A stretch of DNA of 64,000 bases from Thermodesulfovibrionia bacterium (GTDB lineage: Bacteria > Nitrospirota > Thermodesulfovibrionia > UBA6902): assembly GCA_020053105.1 (NCBI GenBank), contig JAGVNU010000028.1, forward strand, positions 1-64,000, given 5' to 3'. The notes beneath the pieces were generated by a model that was not told the origin of the DNA, did no database searches, and saw nothing but the letters and a program-made list of their open reading frames with translations. This document shows, piece by piece, positions 12,547-54,565 of the stretch. How positions within the stretch are numbered: the stretch's first letter is position 1; each line of letters begins with the position of its first letter. Made by a program: the position numbers and the translations under genes.

Positions 12547-14025
12547 TCAACCGTTCTTATCAATAAACGCGTCCCGCATTAATTTGCTCTGTCTCTCAAA
12601 CGCCTGTCTCGGGTTCTTGGGGTCTTTCATGAGGGAAATTTCCTGTGTGATTAATCGCGCGAGGTTCAGAACATGTGTATCTATTTTCGCTGATTCTCTT
12701 TTGTAGAGCGGATGGTCTCTATTTAAATAAATCGTTGTTTCCTCTGAAAACACCTCTGCCCCGTCTTCTCCGAAGCCGTCCACACATATAGAGACGCCTA
12801 TGTCTCCGAATTTCATTCTCTTGATAACAGCATTAGGCGTCAGTTGTTTCACCTTCGGTTTTTTCTTTCTCTTCTTCTTCGGTTCTGCTGCTTTTGCGGC
12901 TTGATCTTCCGGAACGGTTTGTACGGCCTGAACAGCTTCTTTAGTCATACCAGCCGCGCCGCCTATGCCCTTTGTTTCATCTCCGGCAGGAAACGCCCCA
13001 AACGGCGACAGATCGGGATTTGCCGCCAATGCCTTATATATTTTCTGTAAGGCCTCTTTTAAGGCACGGCTGACTTTTCTCCCTTCTTTTTTGCCTGACA
13101 GCTTCTGAAGGATATTCTTTACATCTCCTGTGACCCTCTCCATGACTTTTCTAAATGCTTCGTACTCCGGAGAGTCTTTTATGAAACCGGTCCTGTCGCT
13201 GGTTATCGGGAGAAAGTCCGCGTTAGCCTCCCCGGCTATCCGCGCCATGGCCTTACCCCATGTCTCCATACCGAAGAATTCACGTCTTACGGTCACCTGT
13301 TTTACTTTTATCTCTATTCCCAGGTCCTTGACCGACGAGGCTGTTTCGGGAAGTATGATCACTTCGCCTGAGACAGGGCCGAACGGAGTTCCTTCAAGGA
13401 AAGGGATTTTGTGACCTGAAAGGCTTCTTGGTGTGATAGAGTGTCCATTGAGCCTTACCCTGAAATGAGGCGCCTTGAGCGGAGTGCCCTCGGTTATTCT
13501 GGCTTCAATGTCTTTGGGATTAAACTTTTTATTCAGACCTGCAAGTATAACTGTTGTACCATTCGTCTTCCTGAAATCAGGGGGCAGGATCTCAAGCGGA
13601 AGCTGCCATAGCCCCGTTGCCTTTTCCCATTCTTCCTTGTCAAAGGTGACCCTTCCGACAAAATCTCTGTTCTTTGTTATTACCTCAAATCTTTTGGCTG
13701 CCGAGAGGGTGGCGAATTTTCCGATGCCGAACTGTCCTATCCTGTCCCTCCCATAGACAGGAGATTTCGGCGAATGGAGTTTTTGCTGCGAGCCGATATT
13801 GAAATACTGTTTGAGACCGTCCCTGTCCATGCCGCTTCCGTTGTCGCTGATTTCGATAATGTCCTCGCCGACGATAATCTCCACCAGAGCCGCGTCAGCA
13901 TCATAGGCGTTGTTCACGATTTCTCGCACAAATTCTATGCTTTCAGTATAAAGCCTCTCGCCGATAGTGATGATGTGGCTTTTGTCGATTGTTACGTTGA
14001 TAAATTCGTTGCTGTTTGTGTCCAT
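12547..14025 (-). CDS. Hsp90/GHKL-type ATPase domain protein
   Basis: REIVNNAYDADAALVEI, EISDNGSGMDRDGL, RIGQFGIGKFATLSAAKRFEV; Lys-rich linker and C-terminal domain of unknown function. Confidence 0.8.
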   Translation of the reverse strand: MDTNSNEFINVTIDKSHIITIGERLYTESIEFVREIVNNAYDADAALVEIIVGEDIIEISDNGSGMDRDGLKQYFNIGSQQKLHSPKSPVYGRDRIGQFGIGKFATLSAAKRFEVITKNRDFVGRVTFDKEEWEKATGLWQLPLEILPPDFRKTNGTTVILAGLNKKFNPKDIEARITEGTPLKAPHFRVRLNGHSITPRSLSGHKIPFLEGTPFGPVSGEVIILPETASSVKDLGIEIKVKQVTVRREFFGMETWGKAMARIAGEANADFLPITSDRTGFIKDSPEYEAFRKVMERVTGDVKNILQKLSGKKEGRKVSRALKEALQKIYKALAANPDLSPFGAFPAGDETKGIGGAAGMTKEAVQAVQTVPEDQAAKAAEPKKKRKKKPKVKQLTPNAVIKRMKFGDIGVSICVDGFGEDGAEVFSEETTIYLNRDHPLYKRESAKIDTHVLNLARLITQEISLMKDPKNPRQAFERQSKLMRDAFIDKNG

Positions 14026-18964: not shown

Positions 18965-19402
18965 ATGACAATCGATGAACTTAAACAGTACTGTGAAAAT
19001 GAATTTAAAAATATTGATCGCATAATGGATGAGCTTTTCACGGTCTTCAGGCATGAAGACGGCGAATACACCCTTGCCGAACAGGCCGCTATCTCTACTT
19101 ATATCATGAATGCATACAGCGCGGTTGAGAGTATCCTGAAACAGATGCTCCTTTATGACAAGCTCGATGTAGGAGACGCCCCCGGCTGGCACGAGAAGGT
19201 GCTCAGGAAGGCGGGCGAGATAGGGATACTCCCTCCGGACCTTTTGCATACAATATCCAAATATTTGTCCTTCCGGAACTACTTTATCTATACCTACATG
19301 TTCAACATCAAATGGGAAGACATGAAACCGCTGGCTGAAGGGATCAAAGACCTGATCGCGCAGATCAGGACAGAGACGGATGAGTATCTGCAGACGATTT
19401 AA
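18965..19402 (+). CDS. HepT-like/HEPN-fold protein with altered Rx4H motif
   Basis: All-helical 145 aa; C-terminal FRNYFIYTYMFNIKWEDMKPL resembles the HepT-like FRxxFRHxYxFxLDWERLxPL region. Confidence 0.6.
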   Translation: MTIDELKQYCENEFKNIDRIMDELFTVFRHEDGEYTLAEQAAISTYIMNAYSAVESILKQMLLYDKLDVGDAPGWHEKVLRKAGEIGILPPDLLHTISKYLSFRNYFIYTYMFNIKWEDMKPLAEGIKDLIAQIRTETDEYLQTI

Positions 19403-19772: not shown

Positions 19773-19985
19773 TTATTTCTTCTGATAAATCAGCTTCAAA
19801 ACAAGCAGCACCCACGGTATGCTGTGCAGGACAAGATCGAGCCAATCTATAGGACGGACGAGGCGGCCCCTGACAAGCATTAGTATCTTCTCAACGATAT
19901 GGGGCGGCCAGAAGGGGGCGAGGCCCAGGGTCAGGCATAAAAAAATAGCAACGCTCCATGGCAATTTATCCAGCAGATGGTTCAT
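19773..19985 (-). CDS. Small two-TM membrane protein (70 aa)
   Basis: MNHLLDKLPWSVAIFLCLTLGLAPFWPPHIVEKILMLVRGRLVRPIDWLDLVLHSIPWVLLVLKLIYQKK; 5' part duplicated at 23525-23653. Confidence 0.75.
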   Translation of the reverse strand: MNHLLDKLPWSVAIFLCLTLGLAPFWPPHIVEKILMLVRGRLVRPIDWLDLVLHSIPWVLLVLKLIYQKK

Positions 19986-20080
19986 GGGGTCCAGTATATC
20001 AGATTAAACAGCTGTCAGATAAAAGCTGTCATCGGTCAGCAATCAGCTAGCAAAAAGGACTTCCCCCTGCGTACATTTAT
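19867..20080 (+). repeat. Left copy of ~200 bp imperfect direct repeat flanking the islet
   Basis: Matches 23534-23744: 44 nt identical (agtatcttctcaacgatatggggcggccagaagggggcgaggcc) and 29 nt identical (gcaacgctccatggcaatttatccagcag), continuing through tcagc-rich tail to cccc. Confidence 0.9.
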
Positions 20081-20211
20081 TTATCTGCCTCCTTCCTTTT
20101 GTATTATTTTCGTGACAAACCCTACGAGGGATGTTTATAATCTCCTATCCAGGGACGGCTGAAGTTTATTTACCCTCCCTGCATAGTATCGATATCGTTA
20201 GCGATAAGATA

Positions 20212-20757
20212 ATGAAACATAAGATAATCTTTGTAGGGGGGATACATGGTGTTGGTAAATCAACTTTTAGTAATTCCTTGGCTTCTAGGATTAATGCAAG
20301 ACATTTTTCTGCAAGTGACCTCATATTAATGATAAAGAAAGTAAAGATTACGAAGAATAAAAGAGTATACGATATTCATGGGGATCAAGACATACTATTG
20401 AATGCAATTAATGAAAACTTAAAGGAAGGGATGCTATATATTATAGATGGCCATTTTTGCTTGATAAATAAGAACGGGGAAATAAGCAAAGTGCCGGAAC
20501 AAACATATAAGAGTATCTCTCCCATGGCTATAGTCATGTTATATGATGAGCCATCTAATATTTATGATCGACTGGATAAACGAGATAATGAAAAATACAG
20601 TTTTGAATTTATAAAAGCTTTTCAGGAACAAGAGTTAAATTACTCAAAATATATAGCAGACAACTTTGGCATTCCCTATATTTCATGCAATCCATTTACT
20701 GAGTTCAGCCATGTTTACAAATTTATCGGTAATGTTCTCGAAAAGGAAATAGTCTGA
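20212..20757 (+). CDS. P-loop nucleotide kinase-like protein (AAA/adenylate-kinase-like)
   Basis: KIIFVGGIHGVGKSTFSNSLASRI (Walker A); start trimmed from 20131 to ATG 20212. Confidence 0.75.
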   Translation: MKHKIIFVGGIHGVGKSTFSNSLASRINARHFSASDLILMIKKVKITKNKRVYDIHGDQDILLNAINENLKEGMLYIIDGHFCLINKNGEISKVPEQTYKSISPMAIVMLYDEPSNIYDRLDKRDNEKYSFEFIKAFQEQELNYSKYIADNFGIPYISCNPFTEFSHVYKFIGNVLEKEIV

Positions 20758-22271
20758 TGCGTGTTTTACTAGATACAAACATAATAATTCACCGGGAAGC
20801 TACTAAAATTATAAATAAAGAAATCGGGATCTTATTCAATTGGTTTGATAAACTCCATTATGAAAAGTGCATTCATCCTTTATCTTTATCTGAGATAAGA
20901 AAACATAACGATGAAGATGTTGTGAAAACTATTGAAGCCAAAGTTCAGAATTACAATCTTCTAAAAACAGAAGCACCTGAAGTTAAAGAAATCGTTAATC
21001 TTAGAGCTAAGCACGACCGGAACGACAATGATAAGGTAGACACTTCTTTGCTTAAAGAGGTTTTCTGCAAAAGAGTTAATTACTTAATAACAGAAGATCG
21101 TGCTTTACACTTTAAAGCTGATGAACTTGGCATAGCTGAAGTTGTATTTACAATTGATGACTTCCTTGAAAAGGTCACTGCTGAAAATCCATCTCTAACT
21201 GATTATAAGACGCTTTCAGTGCGGAAGGAGTATTTTGGGAAAATTAATATTGACGATCCATTCTTCGATTCTTTTAAAGAAGATTATAAAGGATTTGAGG
21301 AGTGGTTTAATAGCAAATCAGATGAAATAGCTTATATTTCTCAATCTGATGATGGTGAGATATTGGCTTTCCTTTATGTAAAGATTGAAGATAAGAGTGA
21401 ATATTATGGAGATATAAATACTGTCTTCTCTCCGATGCATCGACTCAAGATAGGAACTTTTAAAGTCATTTCTAATGGTTATAAGCTTGGAGAACGATTT
21501 TTAAAAATAGTGTTTGATAATGCACTTGCCAATAAAGTGGATGAAATATATGTAACAGTATTTGATAACCGAGAAGAGCACGAACGGCTGATTGGCTTAT
21601 TAGAGGACTGGGGCTTTGAGTATTATGGCGTGAAATCGACAGCATCTGGTAAAGAGAGAGTATATGTAAAAAAGTTTAAACCTATTCCGGATGCAAGCAA
21701 TCCTAAAAAAACATATCCTTTTATAAAAAAGGATAGACGTTATTTCATCGTTCCCATATATCCTGAGTACCATACGGAATTATTCCCAGATTCAATTCTA
21801 AAGAATGAATCACCACAGAATTATGTAGAGAATGCACCACATAGAAATGCAATACAAAAAGTATATATATCAAGGTCTATATATCGTGACTTAATGCCTG
21901 GAGATGTTATTATATTTTATCGAACAGGCGGCAAATACAGAGGAGTTATATCAACAATCGGAATCGTTGAAAGCATTATTACAGATATCAATAATGAGAA
22001 TGAATTTATTAGTTTGTGCAGAAAAAGAAGTGTATTTTCAGATAAGAGCTTGTCGGAACATTGGAATTATAATAAATGGAGCAGACCATTTATAGTTAAT
22101 TTTCTTTATCTGTATTCGTTCCCAAAGAGACCTAACTTAGATATGCTGATTAAATTAGGTATAATTGCTGATATTCATAGTGCACCTAGAGGATTTGAGC
22201 AAATTAAGAAAGAACAGTTTGAGACTATTTTGGAGGTGTCAGGGTCTAATGAAAGTTTTATTATCGATTAA
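20757..22271 (+). CDS. PIN nuclease - GNAT - EVE/PUA-like three-domain protein
   Basis: PIN (VLLDTNIIIHRE...LSLSEIRK...LITEDRALHF), GNAT (GYKLGERFLKIVFDNALANKVDEIYVTVFDN), C-terminal EVE/ASCH-like (RDLMPGDVIIFYRTGGKYRGVISTIGIVE...); TGATG overlap with upstream stop. Confidence 0.8.
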   Translation: MRVLLDTNIIIHREATKIINKEIGILFNWFDKLHYEKCIHPLSLSEIRKHNDEDVVKTIEAKVQNYNLLKTEAPEVKEIVNLRAKHDRNDNDKVDTSLLKEVFCKRVNYLITEDRALHFKADELGIAEVVFTIDDFLEKVTAENPSLTDYKTLSVRKEYFGKINIDDPFFDSFKEDYKGFEEWFNSKSDEIAYISQSDDGEILAFLYVKIEDKSEYYGDINTVFSPMHRLKIGTFKVISNGYKLGERFLKIVFDNALANKVDEIYVTVFDNREEHERLIGLLEDWGFEYYGVKSTASGKERVYVKKFKPIPDASNPKKTYPFIKKDRRYFIVPIYPEYHTELFPDSILKNESPQNYVENAPHRNAIQKVYISRSIYRDLMPGDVIIFYRTGGKYRGVISTIGIVESIITDINNENEFISLCRKRSVFSDKSLSEHWNYNKWSRPFIVNFLYLYSFPKRPNLDMLIKLGIIADIHSAPRGFEQIKKEQFETILEVSGSNESFIID

Positions 22272-22626
22272 ACCGGAGTATGCAGAAAAAATCTTAGTTG
22301 GCAATAAAAAGTACGAATTCAGGAGAACTATATTTAAATGTGATTCAATATCAAAAGTAATTATTTATGCTACAAGTCCGATTCAGAAAATAATTGGGGA
22401 ATTTGAAATCGATGACATCCTGACCTTGAATACTTTTGACCTTTGGAAAAAAACCATGCGGTATTCCGGAATTAATAAAGAATTCTATGACAATTATTTT
22501 TCAGGTAAACAAGAAGGTCATGCCATCAAAATTAAAAAACCGAAACGATATTCCAAGTACTTAGATTTGCATGACTATAATATTAAGCAAGCACCACAAT
22601 CATTTATATATCTCAACACATATTAA
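22249..22626 (+). CDS. ASCH domain protein
   Basis: MKVLLSIKPEYAEKILVGNKKYEFRRTIFK...KVIIYATSPIQKIIGEFEIDDI; ggagg RBS; overlaps upstream gene by 23 nt. Confidence 0.85.
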   Translation: MKVLLSIKPEYAEKILVGNKKYEFRRTIFKCDSISKVIIYATSPIQKIIGEFEIDDILTLNTFDLWKKTMRYSGINKEFYDNYFSGKQEGHAIKIKKPKRYSKYLDLHDYNIKQAPQSFIYLNTY

Positions 22627-22629
22627 CTC

Positions 22630-23010
22630 ATGAGAACTGTTGCATTACTTGGCAGTATGGCCGCTATAATCTCCATTATCGCTGGAGTTTATCAATTTGC
22701 ACGCTCAAACAGACTTTCCATATTTTCAAAGTACTGTGATAAATATAATCAAATAGTTAAACCTGAAATATATGAAGATTGGGTTAAGGCACTTAAAGGG
22801 GACAAAGATTTACAGATTAAACTTGAACCACAGATGATTGCATATTTGAATCTCGTTTGGGAGGAATTGTTTTTATTAGAAGATAAGCTAATATCAAAAA
22901 AGCTTTGGAATCACTGGAATCGCGAGATAAAAGAGACACTGTCAAGTTCGTTTGCACAAGACGTTATGAATAAATATGACTATCACTTTCCAGTAAGCTT
23001 TATGAAATAA
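22630..23010 (+). CDS. Hypothetical protein with N-terminal TM
   Basis: LLGSMAAIISIIAGVYQFA TM; starts 3 nt after the ASCH gene. Confidence 0.6.
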   Translation: MRTVALLGSMAAIISIIAGVYQFARSNRLSIFSKYCDKYNQIVKPEIYEDWVKALKGDKDLQIKLEPQMIAYLNLVWEELFLLEDKLISKKLWNHWNREIKETLSSSFAQDVMNKYDYHFPVSFMK

Positions 23011-23070
23011 ACAAAGCGCTGACACCATGGGCTCAAATGCATTCCGGTTTAACGGTAAGAAGGCGTGAAT

Positions 23071-23550
23071 ATGAACGAGAGAATCTTACTCTGCATAACT
23101 ACATTATTACTTCTTTTAGTCGGTTGCGCCGATAGATATCTCAAACCGATATCGACATGTCAACCACTATCTGCTTTTGATACGATTATAATTACCCCTT
23201 TTAATGGTGACTCTGCATTTATCGAAGAAGCACAATACGGACACCTGCCTCCTAGGATTGCTCTTGCTACCACTGAACGTTTGAAAGATCAACTGGAAGA
23301 TAGTCATATGTTTAGAAATGTAATACAATCTTCTGATTGTACAGATCATGCTATCAAGATTGATGGTAAAATTTATAGCCTAACTCATCATAGACGATCA
23401 TTCCATATTGGTATTCGGGGGCAAATCATTAATTGCCAAAATGGTGACGGTCTCTACAAATATGACAATGATGATGAACAGGATTCTGAAATTGTTAAAT
23501 TGCCAGGCCAAATCGCAGGTAAGCTCATTGCCGGCCCCTGGCAAGCATGA
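23071..23550 (+). CDS. Putative lipoprotein running into the right repeat
   Basis: Signal ending LLLLVGC; last codons (GPWQA) lie in the right repeat, so the C-terminus may be non-native. Confidence 0.55.
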   Translation: MNERILLCITTLLLLLVGCADRYLKPISTCQPLSAFDTIIITPFNGDSAFIEEAQYGHLPPRIALATTERLKDQLEDSHMFRNVIQSSDCTDHAIKIDGKIYSLTHHRRSFHIGIRGQIINCQNGDGLYKYDNDDEQDSEIVKLPGQIAGKLIAGPWQA

Positions 23551-23653
23551 GTATCTTCTCAACGATATGGGGCGGCCAGAAGGGGGCGAGGCCGAGAGTG
23601 AAGCAGAGAAAAATGGCAACGCTCCATGGCAATTTATCCAGCAGCTGGTCCAT
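23525..23653 (-). pseudogene. Truncated copy (42 codons) of the 70-aa membrane protein gene
   Basis: MDQLLDKLPWSVAIFLCFTLGLAPFWPPHIVEKILMLARGRQ*; 38 of the first 41 residues match 19773-19985 closely, then stop. Confidence 0.85.
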
Positions 23654-23744
23654 GGGGTCAGTATAGCATATGAAAAAGCTATCAGCGGTCAGCTATCAGC
23701 TTTCAGCCAAAAAAGACTACCCCTTTAACTCTACTCCCTACATT
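23534..23744 (+). repeat. Right copy of ~200 bp imperfect direct repeat flanking the islet
   Basis: See 19867-20080; same orientation, start-to-start distance ~3.67 kb. Confidence 0.9.
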
Positions 23745-24970
23745 TTTAAAATCTCAGGTTTTTTCCAGAGAACAATAGCAGTCCCTGCCAGACAAAACCC
23801 GGCGCTTGTCATCAGCGCATTTTGCGTACCTACATAATGAGCGAGGCTGCCGACCGCGAAATTCCCCAGAGGCGTCATTCCCAGAAACATAGTTGTAAAG
23901 GAGCTCATTACCCTTCCCCTTAATTCGTTGGGGACATTGAGCTGAAGCAGGCTGTTTGCAGTGGCAATCTGGTTGATAGCTCCAAATCCGACGAGAAAGA
24001 GCATGGTGTATGAAAGCCAGACGCTTGTTGAAAATGAGAAGATGAGCAGCGCTGTTGAAAAGATGATGCCTGCAACCGCCATGACTATGCCCTTTCTCGC
24101 AGTATCTCCCTTTATTGCAAGGCCGACTGCCCCTGTAAACGCGCCGGCCCCTGCGCATCCCATGAGAATGCCGAGTCCTGTAGCGCCTGTTTTCAGGATG
24201 TCCCTTGCATATACGGGGAGAAAAGATATGTATGGGAAGCCGAAGAAACTGACTATCCCCGCTGCTATCAGGAGCGCAGATATGTCTGAATTGTGGAAAA
24301 TATATTTAATGCCTTCCTTGAGCGAACTTGTCATCCCCGGTTTTGAAGTTGTTTTGGACTCTTCGGGTTTGAAACGCATTTTAACAAGCGCGATGACTAT
24401 TGCTATGAAGCTTAATGCGTTAATGAAAAAACACGGCGCCAGCCCGAAGGCGCCCATGATCAGACCTGCAATGGCCGGACCGATCATTCGCGCCACGTTG
24501 AAGGCGGATGAATTGAGCGCTATGCCGTTCAGCAGGTCTTCTTTGCCTACCAGTTCGATGATGAAGGACTGACGCGCCGGGATTTCAAAGGCATTGACCG
24601 AGCCGATCAGGAAGGAGAGAACCAGGACATGCCAGACATTGACCGCTCCGGCTGCAACCAGTATGGCGAGAGTCAATGCAAGAAACATAATCACTATGTT
24701 TGACAAGAGTATTATGTTTTTTTTCGGATGTCTGTCTGCAAGAACCCCTCCGGCCAATGTAAAGAGGAGTATCGGAGCTGATGCGACCATTCCCGCGAGC
24801 CCAAGGAAAAAGGGGGAGTCCGTAAGCTTGAAGACCAGCCAGCCCTGCGCAGTCTGATGCATCCACGTGCCGATGAGGGAAATCAATTGACCGGTCCAGA
24901 AAAGCCTGTAATTCCTGTGCCTGAGCGCTGCCAGCGGACGAAAAGTTTTCATAATGAGTAATGATAGCAT
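23738..24970 (-). CDS. MFS transporter (EntS-like)
   Basis: 12-TM; FRPLAALRHRNYRLFWTGQLISLIGTWMHQTAQGWLV, GGVLADRHPKKNI; start may be ATG 24952. Confidence 0.9.
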   Translation of the reverse strand: MLSLLIMKTFRPLAALRHRNYRLFWTGQLISLIGTWMHQTAQGWLVFKLTDSPFFLGLAGMVASAPILLFTLAGGVLADRHPKKNIILLSNIVIMFLALTLAILVAAGAVNVWHVLVLSFLIGSVNAFEIPARQSFIIELVGKEDLLNGIALNSSAFNVARMIGPAIAGLIMGAFGLAPCFFINALSFIAIVIALVKMRFKPEESKTTSKPGMTSSLKEGIKYIFHNSDISALLIAAGIVSFFGFPYISFLPVYARDILKTGATGLGILMGCAGAGAFTGAVGLAIKGDTARKGIVMAVAGIIFSTALLIFSFSTSVWLSYTMLFLVGFGAINQIATANSLLQLNVPNELRGRVMSSFTTMFLGMTPLGNFAVGSLAHYVGTQNALMTSAGFCLAGTAIVLWKKPEILKM

Positions 24971-28968: not shown

Positions 28969-31203
<2,235 letters not shown>

Positions 31204-52921: not shown

Positions 52922-53311
52922 TTATCGCAAATGAAATTTATTGACCTTGTTGACTTCGTCTTCCAATTGCAGCGCAATTGATATGTTTTTTGACCGATCG
53001 TCATAATCAGCCCAACCTAAAATATTTGCATGTCTCTCTGGAGTATCATCAGGAACTACTTCCAGCCCTTTATCAGTAACTTTAGATGTAACAATATCAC
53101 CTCTGCCAAGAATCTCCTTTTGAATGTGACGGTCTCCTAAAGACCATATTTCATCATCTGATATTCCAGATGTTCTGAAAACAGAAGTCTCCCCGTTTTT
53201 GGTAGGCATAAAGACAGTCCATTTGATGGTATTATTTGAAGGTCTGTAATGCTGTTTGGACGTTGCAAATCGAGTGAGAATTTCTGCAGGAGATATTGGA
53301 GCTGGAGGCAA
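52922..53311 (-). CDS. Hypothetical protein, third gene of TIGR04255-type cassette
   Basis: 129-aa ORF 7 nt after previous gene; EILGRGDIVTSKVTDKGLEVVPDDTPERHANILGWADY. Confidence 0.65.
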   Translation of the reverse strand: MPPAPISPAEILTRFATSKQHYRPSNNTIKWTVFMPTKNGETSVFRTSGISDDEIWSLGDRHIQKEILGRGDIVTSKVTDKGLEVVPDDTPERHANILGWADYDDRSKNISIALQLEDEVNKVNKFHLR

Positions 53312-53318
53312 CGCTGTT

Positions 53319-53825
53319 CTACCTTCCTGAATATAATCGTTTAAGATTGGATATTATAGCTGGGGGCAAAGAGCTTCCGAAATATTCAATCCCGTGCGTC
53401 TTGTTAGTTCCGTATAAACCTGCGTAAATAATTTCACTTTTCCCGCTTACACTTACGACAAAAATTGACCGATTCCCTCTGTACCATTCCAGAGCTATCT
53501 CGCCATTTGGTTCGGCGGTAATAGAAGGCATGGGGAATGTCATATTTGAAGGTAGCAAGTAAATTAATTTTGCTGCATCTAATACAGCATCTTCTGATAC
53601 GGGAAGTGCGCCCGTTCCATCCCAGTCTTCAACAGAACACTCCTTAAATACTTCCATGAGGGCGGCAATTGTTTCTTCAATAGGACGGCTAAAGGTTTCA
53701 GTCCTTCTGAAATCCCCGATTACCTTATCACAAAACGTTTTCAGGCCTTCAAAATCAGGACTAAATCCAAAATCCAAAAAATTAGAAACGCTTGGACAAT
53801 TAGGACAATAAGTTGCTGTGCTCAT
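53319..53825 (-). CDS. Hypothetical protein, second gene of cassette
   Basis: CPNCPSV N-terminus; VEDWDGTGALPVSEDAVLDAAKLIYLLP...AEPNGEIALEWYRGNRSIFVVSVSG...YAGLYGTNKTHGIEYF; 4-nt overlap with upstream gene. Confidence 0.7.
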   Translation of the reverse strand: MSTATYCPNCPSVSNFLDFGFSPDFEGLKTFCDKVIGDFRRTETFSRPIEETIAALMEVFKECSVEDWDGTGALPVSEDAVLDAAKLIYLLPSNMTFPMPSITAEPNGEIALEWYRGNRSIFVVSVSGKSEIIYAGLYGTNKTHGIEYFGSSLPPAIISNLKRLYSGR

Positions 53826-54565
53826 TTGTAAAGCTCCTGTAATTTTTTTGTGATACTATTGAAAAATATTTCATTCTTGAAATTTCGTAAATTTTCTAAT
53901 TTGTTCCAAGTATCTTTTTCGGTGAGACCATCCGGATTATGATGAATAGCATCTATATCCAATATTATAGGTAATGATTTGCTTGTGTCAATTATTGTTT
54001 CCAGTGCCTGGGCTATAATCGCGAATGAATTAATAGACGGTTTTGGCAACACTATGCGACTGAAAAAACTGCTTATCCCCTGAGGCAATTTCTCCGGTAC
54101 AATAGGAGGAGCTGTCAAATATTCTCCGAAATCTCCTATTGGCATTGGTATATTTAAGTTATTTATATATCTTACAGCAACTCTGTAAATTAATTCCGGA
54201 GAGGTAATATCAGCATACATTTTCCATAATCTATAAGCTTCGTCACGTAGTTGATTCCAGGTAATATATGGTTGCAATCTGCTGAAAGTGAATCCGTCCA
54301 GTCTTGTTTGGACTATTTGTTTCTTATCAGTCGTTATATAACGATACCCATGCATTTTGGCTTCTGATGACTTCACTATCACTTCTGCCTTGGGCTCAAG
54401 CTTAAATTCCGATACTTTTTGTTCCTGTTTGACAGGGTATTGCTCTCTTATTAATTCATGAATAAAGTCTATTCTATTGACATCAACTGATGAAGGTAAT
54501 TTCACACGAATATCGATAAGCGCTTCGGTAATAGGGGCATTTTTTAATGTAGGGTATTTTTCCAA
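53822..54565 (-). CDS. TIGR04255-like family protein
   Basis: YPTLKNAPITEALIDIRVKLP...RVAVRYINNLNIPMPIGDFGEYLTAPPIVPEKLPQGISSFFSRIVLP...LDIDAIHHNP. Confidence 0.75.
   Translation of the reverse strand: MEKYPTLKNAPITEALIDIRVKLPSSVDVNRIDFIHELIREQYPVKQEQKVSEFKLEPKAEVIVKSSEAKMHGYRYITTDKKQIVQTRLDGFTFSRLQPYITWNQLRDEAYRLWKMYADITSPELIYRVAVRYINNLNIPMPIGDFGEYLTAPPIVPEKLPQGISSFFSRIVLPKPSINSFAIIAQALETIIDTSKSLPIILDIDAIHHNPDGLTEKDTWNKLENLRNFKNEIFFNSITKKLQELYK

Follow-up and report, generated by a model that had tools for sequence, protein, structure and literature searches.

The three genes at positions 20212–22626 of the window (the whole 64,000-nt stretch of DNA that was analysed) are read here, with moderate confidence, as a mobile toxin-antitoxin-like cassette of the PDC-M11/GevTA kind. 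It would be a candidate abortive-infection system in which an RNA-targeting effector is paired with an ASCH antitoxin and accompanied by an accessory kinase. The evidence for this reading includes matches to the PDC-M11A and PDC-M11B models, the GevT/GevA labels of phage homologues, a conserved gene overlap, intact acidic residues in the PIN domain, a kinase that diverges together with the effector, and empty insertion sites. An atypical P-loop in the GNAT domain, the lack of clear phage-defence neighbours and the RNase activity of ZmASCH, an ASCH homologue, speak against it.

A toxin-antitoxin or defence role had been put forward in the original prediction, and it holds as a putative assignment. 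The control envisaged there, with the kinase and the two PUA-like readers gating or neutralising the nuclease/acetyltransferase, is likewise putative. The same prediction had not recognised the gene set as a named system, which proved incorrect, as it already exists as PDC-M11, as the modules of Bell et al. 2020 and as GevT/GevA. Our literature search found no experimental paper on the system and no toxicity or phage data.

A cassette of overlapping genes with named relatives

All three genes lie on the plus strand. The AdkA/adenylate-kinase-type (AAA_17) gene extends from ATG 20212 to TGA 20757 (181 aa), the gene of the PIN-GNAT-EVE effector (PDC-M11A/GevT-like) from ATG 20757 to TAA 22271 (504 aa), and that of the ASCH protein (PDC-M11B/GevA-like, the putative antitoxin) from ATG 22249 to TAA 22626 (125 aa). 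An alternative kinase ATG is present upstream at 20131, but homologues begin at the position equivalent to 20212 (e.g. L090:6456, 'MKHRIIFVGG'), which supports 20212 as the start. The kinase and effector genes meet in TGATG at 20755–20759, and the effector and ASCH genes overlap by 23 nt (22249–22271, plus strand), with GGAGGTG just 5' of the ASCH ATG, an arrangement suited to translational coupling. Both overlaps are as originally described, and the operon organisation inferred from them is borne out by the linkage kept among relatives. At 36/64 loci in genomes and 22/49 in phages, the ASCH start lies at offset −22 relative to the effector (58/81 loci in a second count of the overlap offset), so the overlap is ancient and has been retained. 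Inverted repeats 5' of the operon revealed no site evidently common to this copy and two relatives.

PADLOC assigned the effector to PDC-M11A (E=2.7e-219, residues 1–503 against positions 1–500 of 501) and the adjoining ASCH protein to PDC-M11B (3.1e-49). PDC-M11 is a PADLOC phage-defence candidate composed of A and B, and the kinase lies outside its models; no paper naming PDC-M11 was found in the literature searched. EVE-GNAT fusions, often with an N-terminal PIN domain, were described as putative toxin-antitoxin modules by Bell et al. 2020 (PMC7641849), where (PIN)-GNAT-EVE is nearly always accompanied by ASCH and often by an AAA_17 protein; the passage on these modules in that paper cites Iyer et al. 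The same three gene types and the same PIN-GNAT-EVE domain order are found here. Those modules are typically, not obligatorily, located close to defence systems such as type I R-M, whereas none is near this copy, and the 'AAA+ ATPase' of Bell et al. is here predicted to have an AdkA/NMP-kinase-type fold.

In the E. coli lambdoid phage PhiR47_2 (Escherichia phage, GenBank PV340567), homologues labelled GevT toxin and GevA antitoxin are encoded between cI and kil. Their genes overlap as well, and the proteins are 41% (GNAT-EVE) and 52% (ASCH) identical to ours, but the phage pair has neither PIN domain nor kinase. The toxin and antitoxin names are a GenBank label only, and no GevT paper was found in the literature search. 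Judged by its sequences, the cassette is another PDC-M11/PIN-GNAT-EVE-ASCH system, thus of a known kind, with a kinase-bearing subtype that is well defined. Our analysis adds the near-obligate ASCH gene, the co-inheritance of the AdkA-type kinase, the homology between effector and ASCH protein, the loss of the YqfB nucleophile, and the insertion.

The effector and its ASCH partner

The single effector sequence gave no clear Pfam match (EVE 0.02), the protein being too diverged. When 54 effector relatives were scanned, PIN_3 was detected in 30, EVE in 16 and GNAT families in ≤8 each. An AlphaFold2 model built from the 54-row alignment had a mean pLDDT of 86.5. In Foldseek, the middle part of this model matched GNAT acetyltransferase structures (E down to 1.3e-5), and the C-terminus matched the PUA-like ZmASCH (E=1.6e-5, target-normalised TM 0.76). 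The GNAT domain is thus placed at residues ~155–308 (21219–21680, plus strand) and the EVE/PUA-like domain at residues ~320–504 (21714–22268, plus strand). These two domains, which had been named from the sequence at the outset, agree with the model and with Pfam on relatives; PIN structures were not among the best 50 Foldseek matches listed. The call of a PIN domain at residues ~1–143 (20757–21185, plus strand) rests on Pfam PIN_3 in relatives, on conserved residues and on the order of secondary structures in the model.

Conservation of the PIN residues was counted in 94–97 relatives. D6 (93/95), E46 (94/97 as E/D), D92 (93/94), D95 (94/94) and D114 (95/96) are nearly invariant, and the acidic residues in LLDTN, SLSEI, NDKVD and TEDRA on which the PIN claim had been based are the conserved ones. 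Type II VapBC systems consist of a stand-alone PIN toxin and a small upstream DNA-binding antitoxin; unlike them, the PIN here is part of a multidomain 504-aa protein whose ASCH partner lies downstream. In the GNAT domain, G245 and K231 are both conserved in 128/128 sequences. TacT/AtaT GNAT toxins have the canonical Q/RxxGxG/A acetyl-CoA loop, from which the effector deviates: its P-loop reads G-x-[K/R]-L-G-E, with K or R at the first Gly position in 120/128 sequences and the last Gly in 128/128. With the first Gly replaced and the last invariant, acetyltransferase activity of the effector is likely, not certain.

Variant effectors of ~690 aa were observed in the same phylum (L019:904-2970; on the minus strand, L021:304-2385, L023:1459-3495 and L006:1495-3504). 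A canonical GNAT is followed in them by PIN, a middle part with no recognisable acetyl-CoA loop and an EVE-like end, and the ASCH gene is next. In these variants the GNAT activity may have shifted to the N-terminal end.

The third gene had been called a stand-alone ASCH domain, and this was confirmed by Pfam (ASCH, 4.3e-6) and by the PDC-M11B match. The effector C-terminal domain and the ASCH partner family are homologous (hhalign: 93.4%, E=2.4e-7), which suggests a common ligand or pairing with each other. In a profile search, the closest solved structure to the ASCH protein was ZmASCH (ZMO0922, PDB 5guq/5gus; 4.2e-31), which cleaves single-stranded RNA in vitro in a Mg-dependent manner (PMC5615036). 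Tyr47 and Ser128 of ZmASCH correspond to Y40 (125/125) and S118 (124/125) of the ASCH family, while the position of its Lys53 is variable (S, G, Q or K). Given the in vitro activity of ZmASCH, the ASCH protein could itself be an effector. Among the matches listed, the effector accompanies the ZmASCH-like gene on most plasmids, and on some no effector was detected. At the Mesorhizobium plasmid locus L008 (3561–5874), one effector is flanked by two different ASCH genes, one of them antisense.

The ASCH fold is also that of YqfB, the E. coli N4-acetylcytidine amidohydrolase, which requires Lys21, Thr24, Glu74 and Arg26 (PMC6972931). Its nucleophile Thr24 is replaced here by an invariant Glu (E23, 125/125), so a YqfB-type N4-acetylcytidine deacetylase is unsupported and was rejected. 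By motif alignment, Lys21 and Arg26 of YqfB correspond to the invariant K20 and R25.

Linkage, kinase and insertion

Scanning species genomes yielded 80 full-length effector relatives with 54–72% identity, in Planctomycetota, Nitrospirota, Pseudomonadota, Bacteroidota, Chloroflexota, Bacillota, cyanobacteria, archaea and others. Kin of the effector also occur on phages and plasmids; a single-sequence scan of viral sequences gave no match. Loci with enough flank were used to count linkage. The ASCH gene adjoins the effector in 121/122 of them (63/64 PIN-bearing genomic, 49/49 PIN-less viral and 9/9 PIN-bearing viral), L112 being the sole exception. The kinase is present in 40/64 PIN-bearing full-length genomic loci, upstream on the same strand in 39 and with the same 4-nt offset in 21; among viral loci it is found in 14/49 PIN-less and 8/9 PIN-bearing ones, mostly downstream. 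The loci were picked by similarity to this effector, so these percentages describe its neighbourhood and not all such proteins. Conserved linkage, whose absence would have counted against a functional unit, is therefore what the relatives display: ASCH is near-obligate and the kinase is accessory, being dispensable to the cassette in about one third of loci. The effector is almost never found without ASCH, whereas ASCH-like genes occur without the effector. This is the pattern expected of a toxin and its antitoxin, though it is not proof.

PIN is absent in 55/64 viral loci, and the PIN form is that of chromosomes and plasmids. In the archaeal prophage psiM100, the PIN form lies in a fragment annotated as inserted, next to an ASCH gene. 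Of 5,426 complete E. coli genomes, 275 have the phage GNAT-EVE/ASCH pair. Some loci depart from the usual gene order, and in these, two uncharacterised families of proteins are repeatedly found beside the effector. One is a 311-aa protein between effector and ASCH, downstream of the effector (L147, 8497–9432; L148, L155 and L157); the other, beginning like 'NSFFIRDNQNGLRLKRFHICSWEF', is upstream of the effector (L151, L158, L159, L127 and L144).

The kinase matched Pfam AAA_17 (1.3e-16) and the profiles of archaeal adenylate kinases. With its AlphaFold2 model (pLDDT 93.6), the best Foldseek hits were archaeal adenylate kinases (OdinAK and methanogen enzymes; query TM ~0.67–0.78). K16, D79, H81 and R124 are invariant in 73–74 sequences. 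The likeness to AdkA thus covers the fold (TM up to 0.78), the P-loop, the LID arginine and the D-x-H motif, which the archaeal enzyme 1nks also has (IDTHAVI); in contrast, identity is ~14–20% and the substrate region diverges. An AAA+ ATPase was rejected in view of the NMP-kinase-type fold seen by profile and Foldseek. At E<=1e-8 the kinase occurs in 2/396 genomes of the phylum, the window's genome and G273, both times at the effector locus, which also rejects a housekeeping adenylate kinase adjacent by chance. By predicted fold and motifs, the protein proves to be an AdkA/adenylate-kinase-type enzyme that appears dedicated to the PIN-GNAT-EVE system. In PADLOC it matched no PDC-M11 model, and weakly VakA (4.3e-6) and PDC-M51B (3.5e-4).

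Kinase presence required 7 changes on the effector tree, versus 22.3 with shuffled labels. The window's effector falls in a clade with strong support, in which 36 of 39 rows have the kinase, and effector and kinase distances are correlated (Mantel r=0.73, p=0.001). These results indicate that the kinase is a co-inherited accessory, gained or lost several times. Since it also occurs beside PIN-less effectors, we infer that it belongs with the GNAT-EVE/ASCH core and not with the PIN domain.

The cassette has 30–33% GC in a window of 47% GC, and the island around it has 32%. Three same-genus genomes have the flanks but lack the cassette, and in one of these (G003) the site is continuous. The insertion sits between the two copies of a direct repeat of ~250 nt with small gaps. 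The left copy (19827–20083, aligned to 23504–23748) contains a full 70-aa membrane-protein gene on the minus strand and its upstream region, and the right copy (23504–23748) contains a truncated second copy of this gene; G003 has a single copy (L185). No integrase was evident in the island. The cassette is mobile and horizontally inserted, and this copy is clean and recent.

Two further plus-strand ORFs of the island, one of 126 aa with an N-terminal hydrophobic segment (22630–23010, GC 33.6%) and one of 161 aa that is lipoprotein-like (23065–23550, GC 38.9%), have no homologue in any related locus and were therefore rejected as module genes and regarded as local cargo. A HepT-like HEPN protein is encoded at 18965–19402 (plus strand; HepT-like_2, 3.3e-13), with no MntA-type nucleotidyltransferase evident beside it. 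In all four sister genomes, including those that lack the cassette, this gene is preceded by the same gene, and it is thus a core gene of the genus rather than a part of the module.

The defence-island location envisaged in the original prediction was not seen, there being no clear phage-defence or R-M genes near the cassette and no surrounding defence island within the window; a type I R-M HsdM gene is close by in 5/80 relatives' loci. Elsewhere in the window, an HSP90/GHKL-type ATPase (12547–14025, minus strand) weakly matches PADLOC restriction-type and TmtA models with its N-terminal ATPase part. A catalase-peroxidase (KatG-like) gene at 28990–31203 (plus strand; 60% GC versus 47% for the window) was probably acquired horizontally. 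A second AT-rich patch with three ORFs (52922–54565, minus strand; 35–41% GC) is possibly another acquired island.

Alternative readings and proposed mechanism

An unlikely alternative is a modification/restriction-like system, in which the GNAT domain acetylates a DNA or RNA base, EVE and ASCH read the mark, and PIN destroys wrongly marked RNA; the kinase may then prime the base or nucleotide. The idea goes back to Iyer et al. and is cited by Bell et al. 2020 (PMC7641849), who also reported that EVE domains bind modified bases, and the occasional HsdM neighbours are consistent with it. However, PIN and ASCH biochemistry indicates RNA, the cassette has no methyltransferase, and most loci, this one included, have no R-M genes nearby.

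We consider it very unlikely that the polarity is reversed, with ASCH acting as a ZmASCH-like RNase toxin and the PIN-GNAT-EVE protein restraining it or repairing the damage. The cutting of ssRNA by ZmASCH and the equivalence of its Tyr47/Ser128 with Y40/S118 argue for such a toxin, but the third residue, Lys53, is unconserved, the PIN catalytic residues of the effector are intact, and it is ASCH-like genes, hardly ever effectors, that exist alone. Still less probable is the counter-defence model put forward in Bell et al. 2020 (PMC7641849), according to which the prophage GNAT-EVE modifies aa-tRNA in favour of the phage and the host PIN-GNAT-EVE degrades those RNAs. The prevalence of the PIN-less form in phage loci and of the PIN form on chromosomes and plasmids would fit this model. 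However, the two forms do not differ in their ASCH partner or in how the genes overlap, and both have the kinase in some loci, which makes them look like a single system instead of opponents.

For the toxin-antitoxin reading, which we prefer, we infer the polarity, the RNA target and the role of the kinase as follows. The PUA-like C-terminus would place the effector on an RNA; tRNA, or some other RNA of translation, is the most plausible one. There the GNAT domain would acetylate the bound RNA or the amino acid attached to it, and PIN would cleave the RNA. ASCH, made in a coupled manner from the overlapping frame, would keep the effector inactive by binding to the effector itself or to the RNA site that the effector uses. 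The AdkA-type kinase would act as an accessory that controls the GNAT-EVE/ASCH core and not the PIN domain.

A bolder version, which we rate as quite unlikely, is that an RNA-acetylating and RNA-cleaving toxin has its reader displaced from RNA by a paralogous ASCH antitoxin, while a dedicated adenylate-kinase-type enzyme couples its activity to nucleotide pools or to RNA or protein phosphorylation. This would be a new type of toxin-antitoxin or defence control. The system is widespread in bacteria, archaea, plasmids and prophages, and its chemistry is now directly testable: which of the PIN, GNAT, ASCH and AdkA-type kinase parts act, on which RNA, and whether ASCH is an antitoxin that is kin to the reader of its effector.
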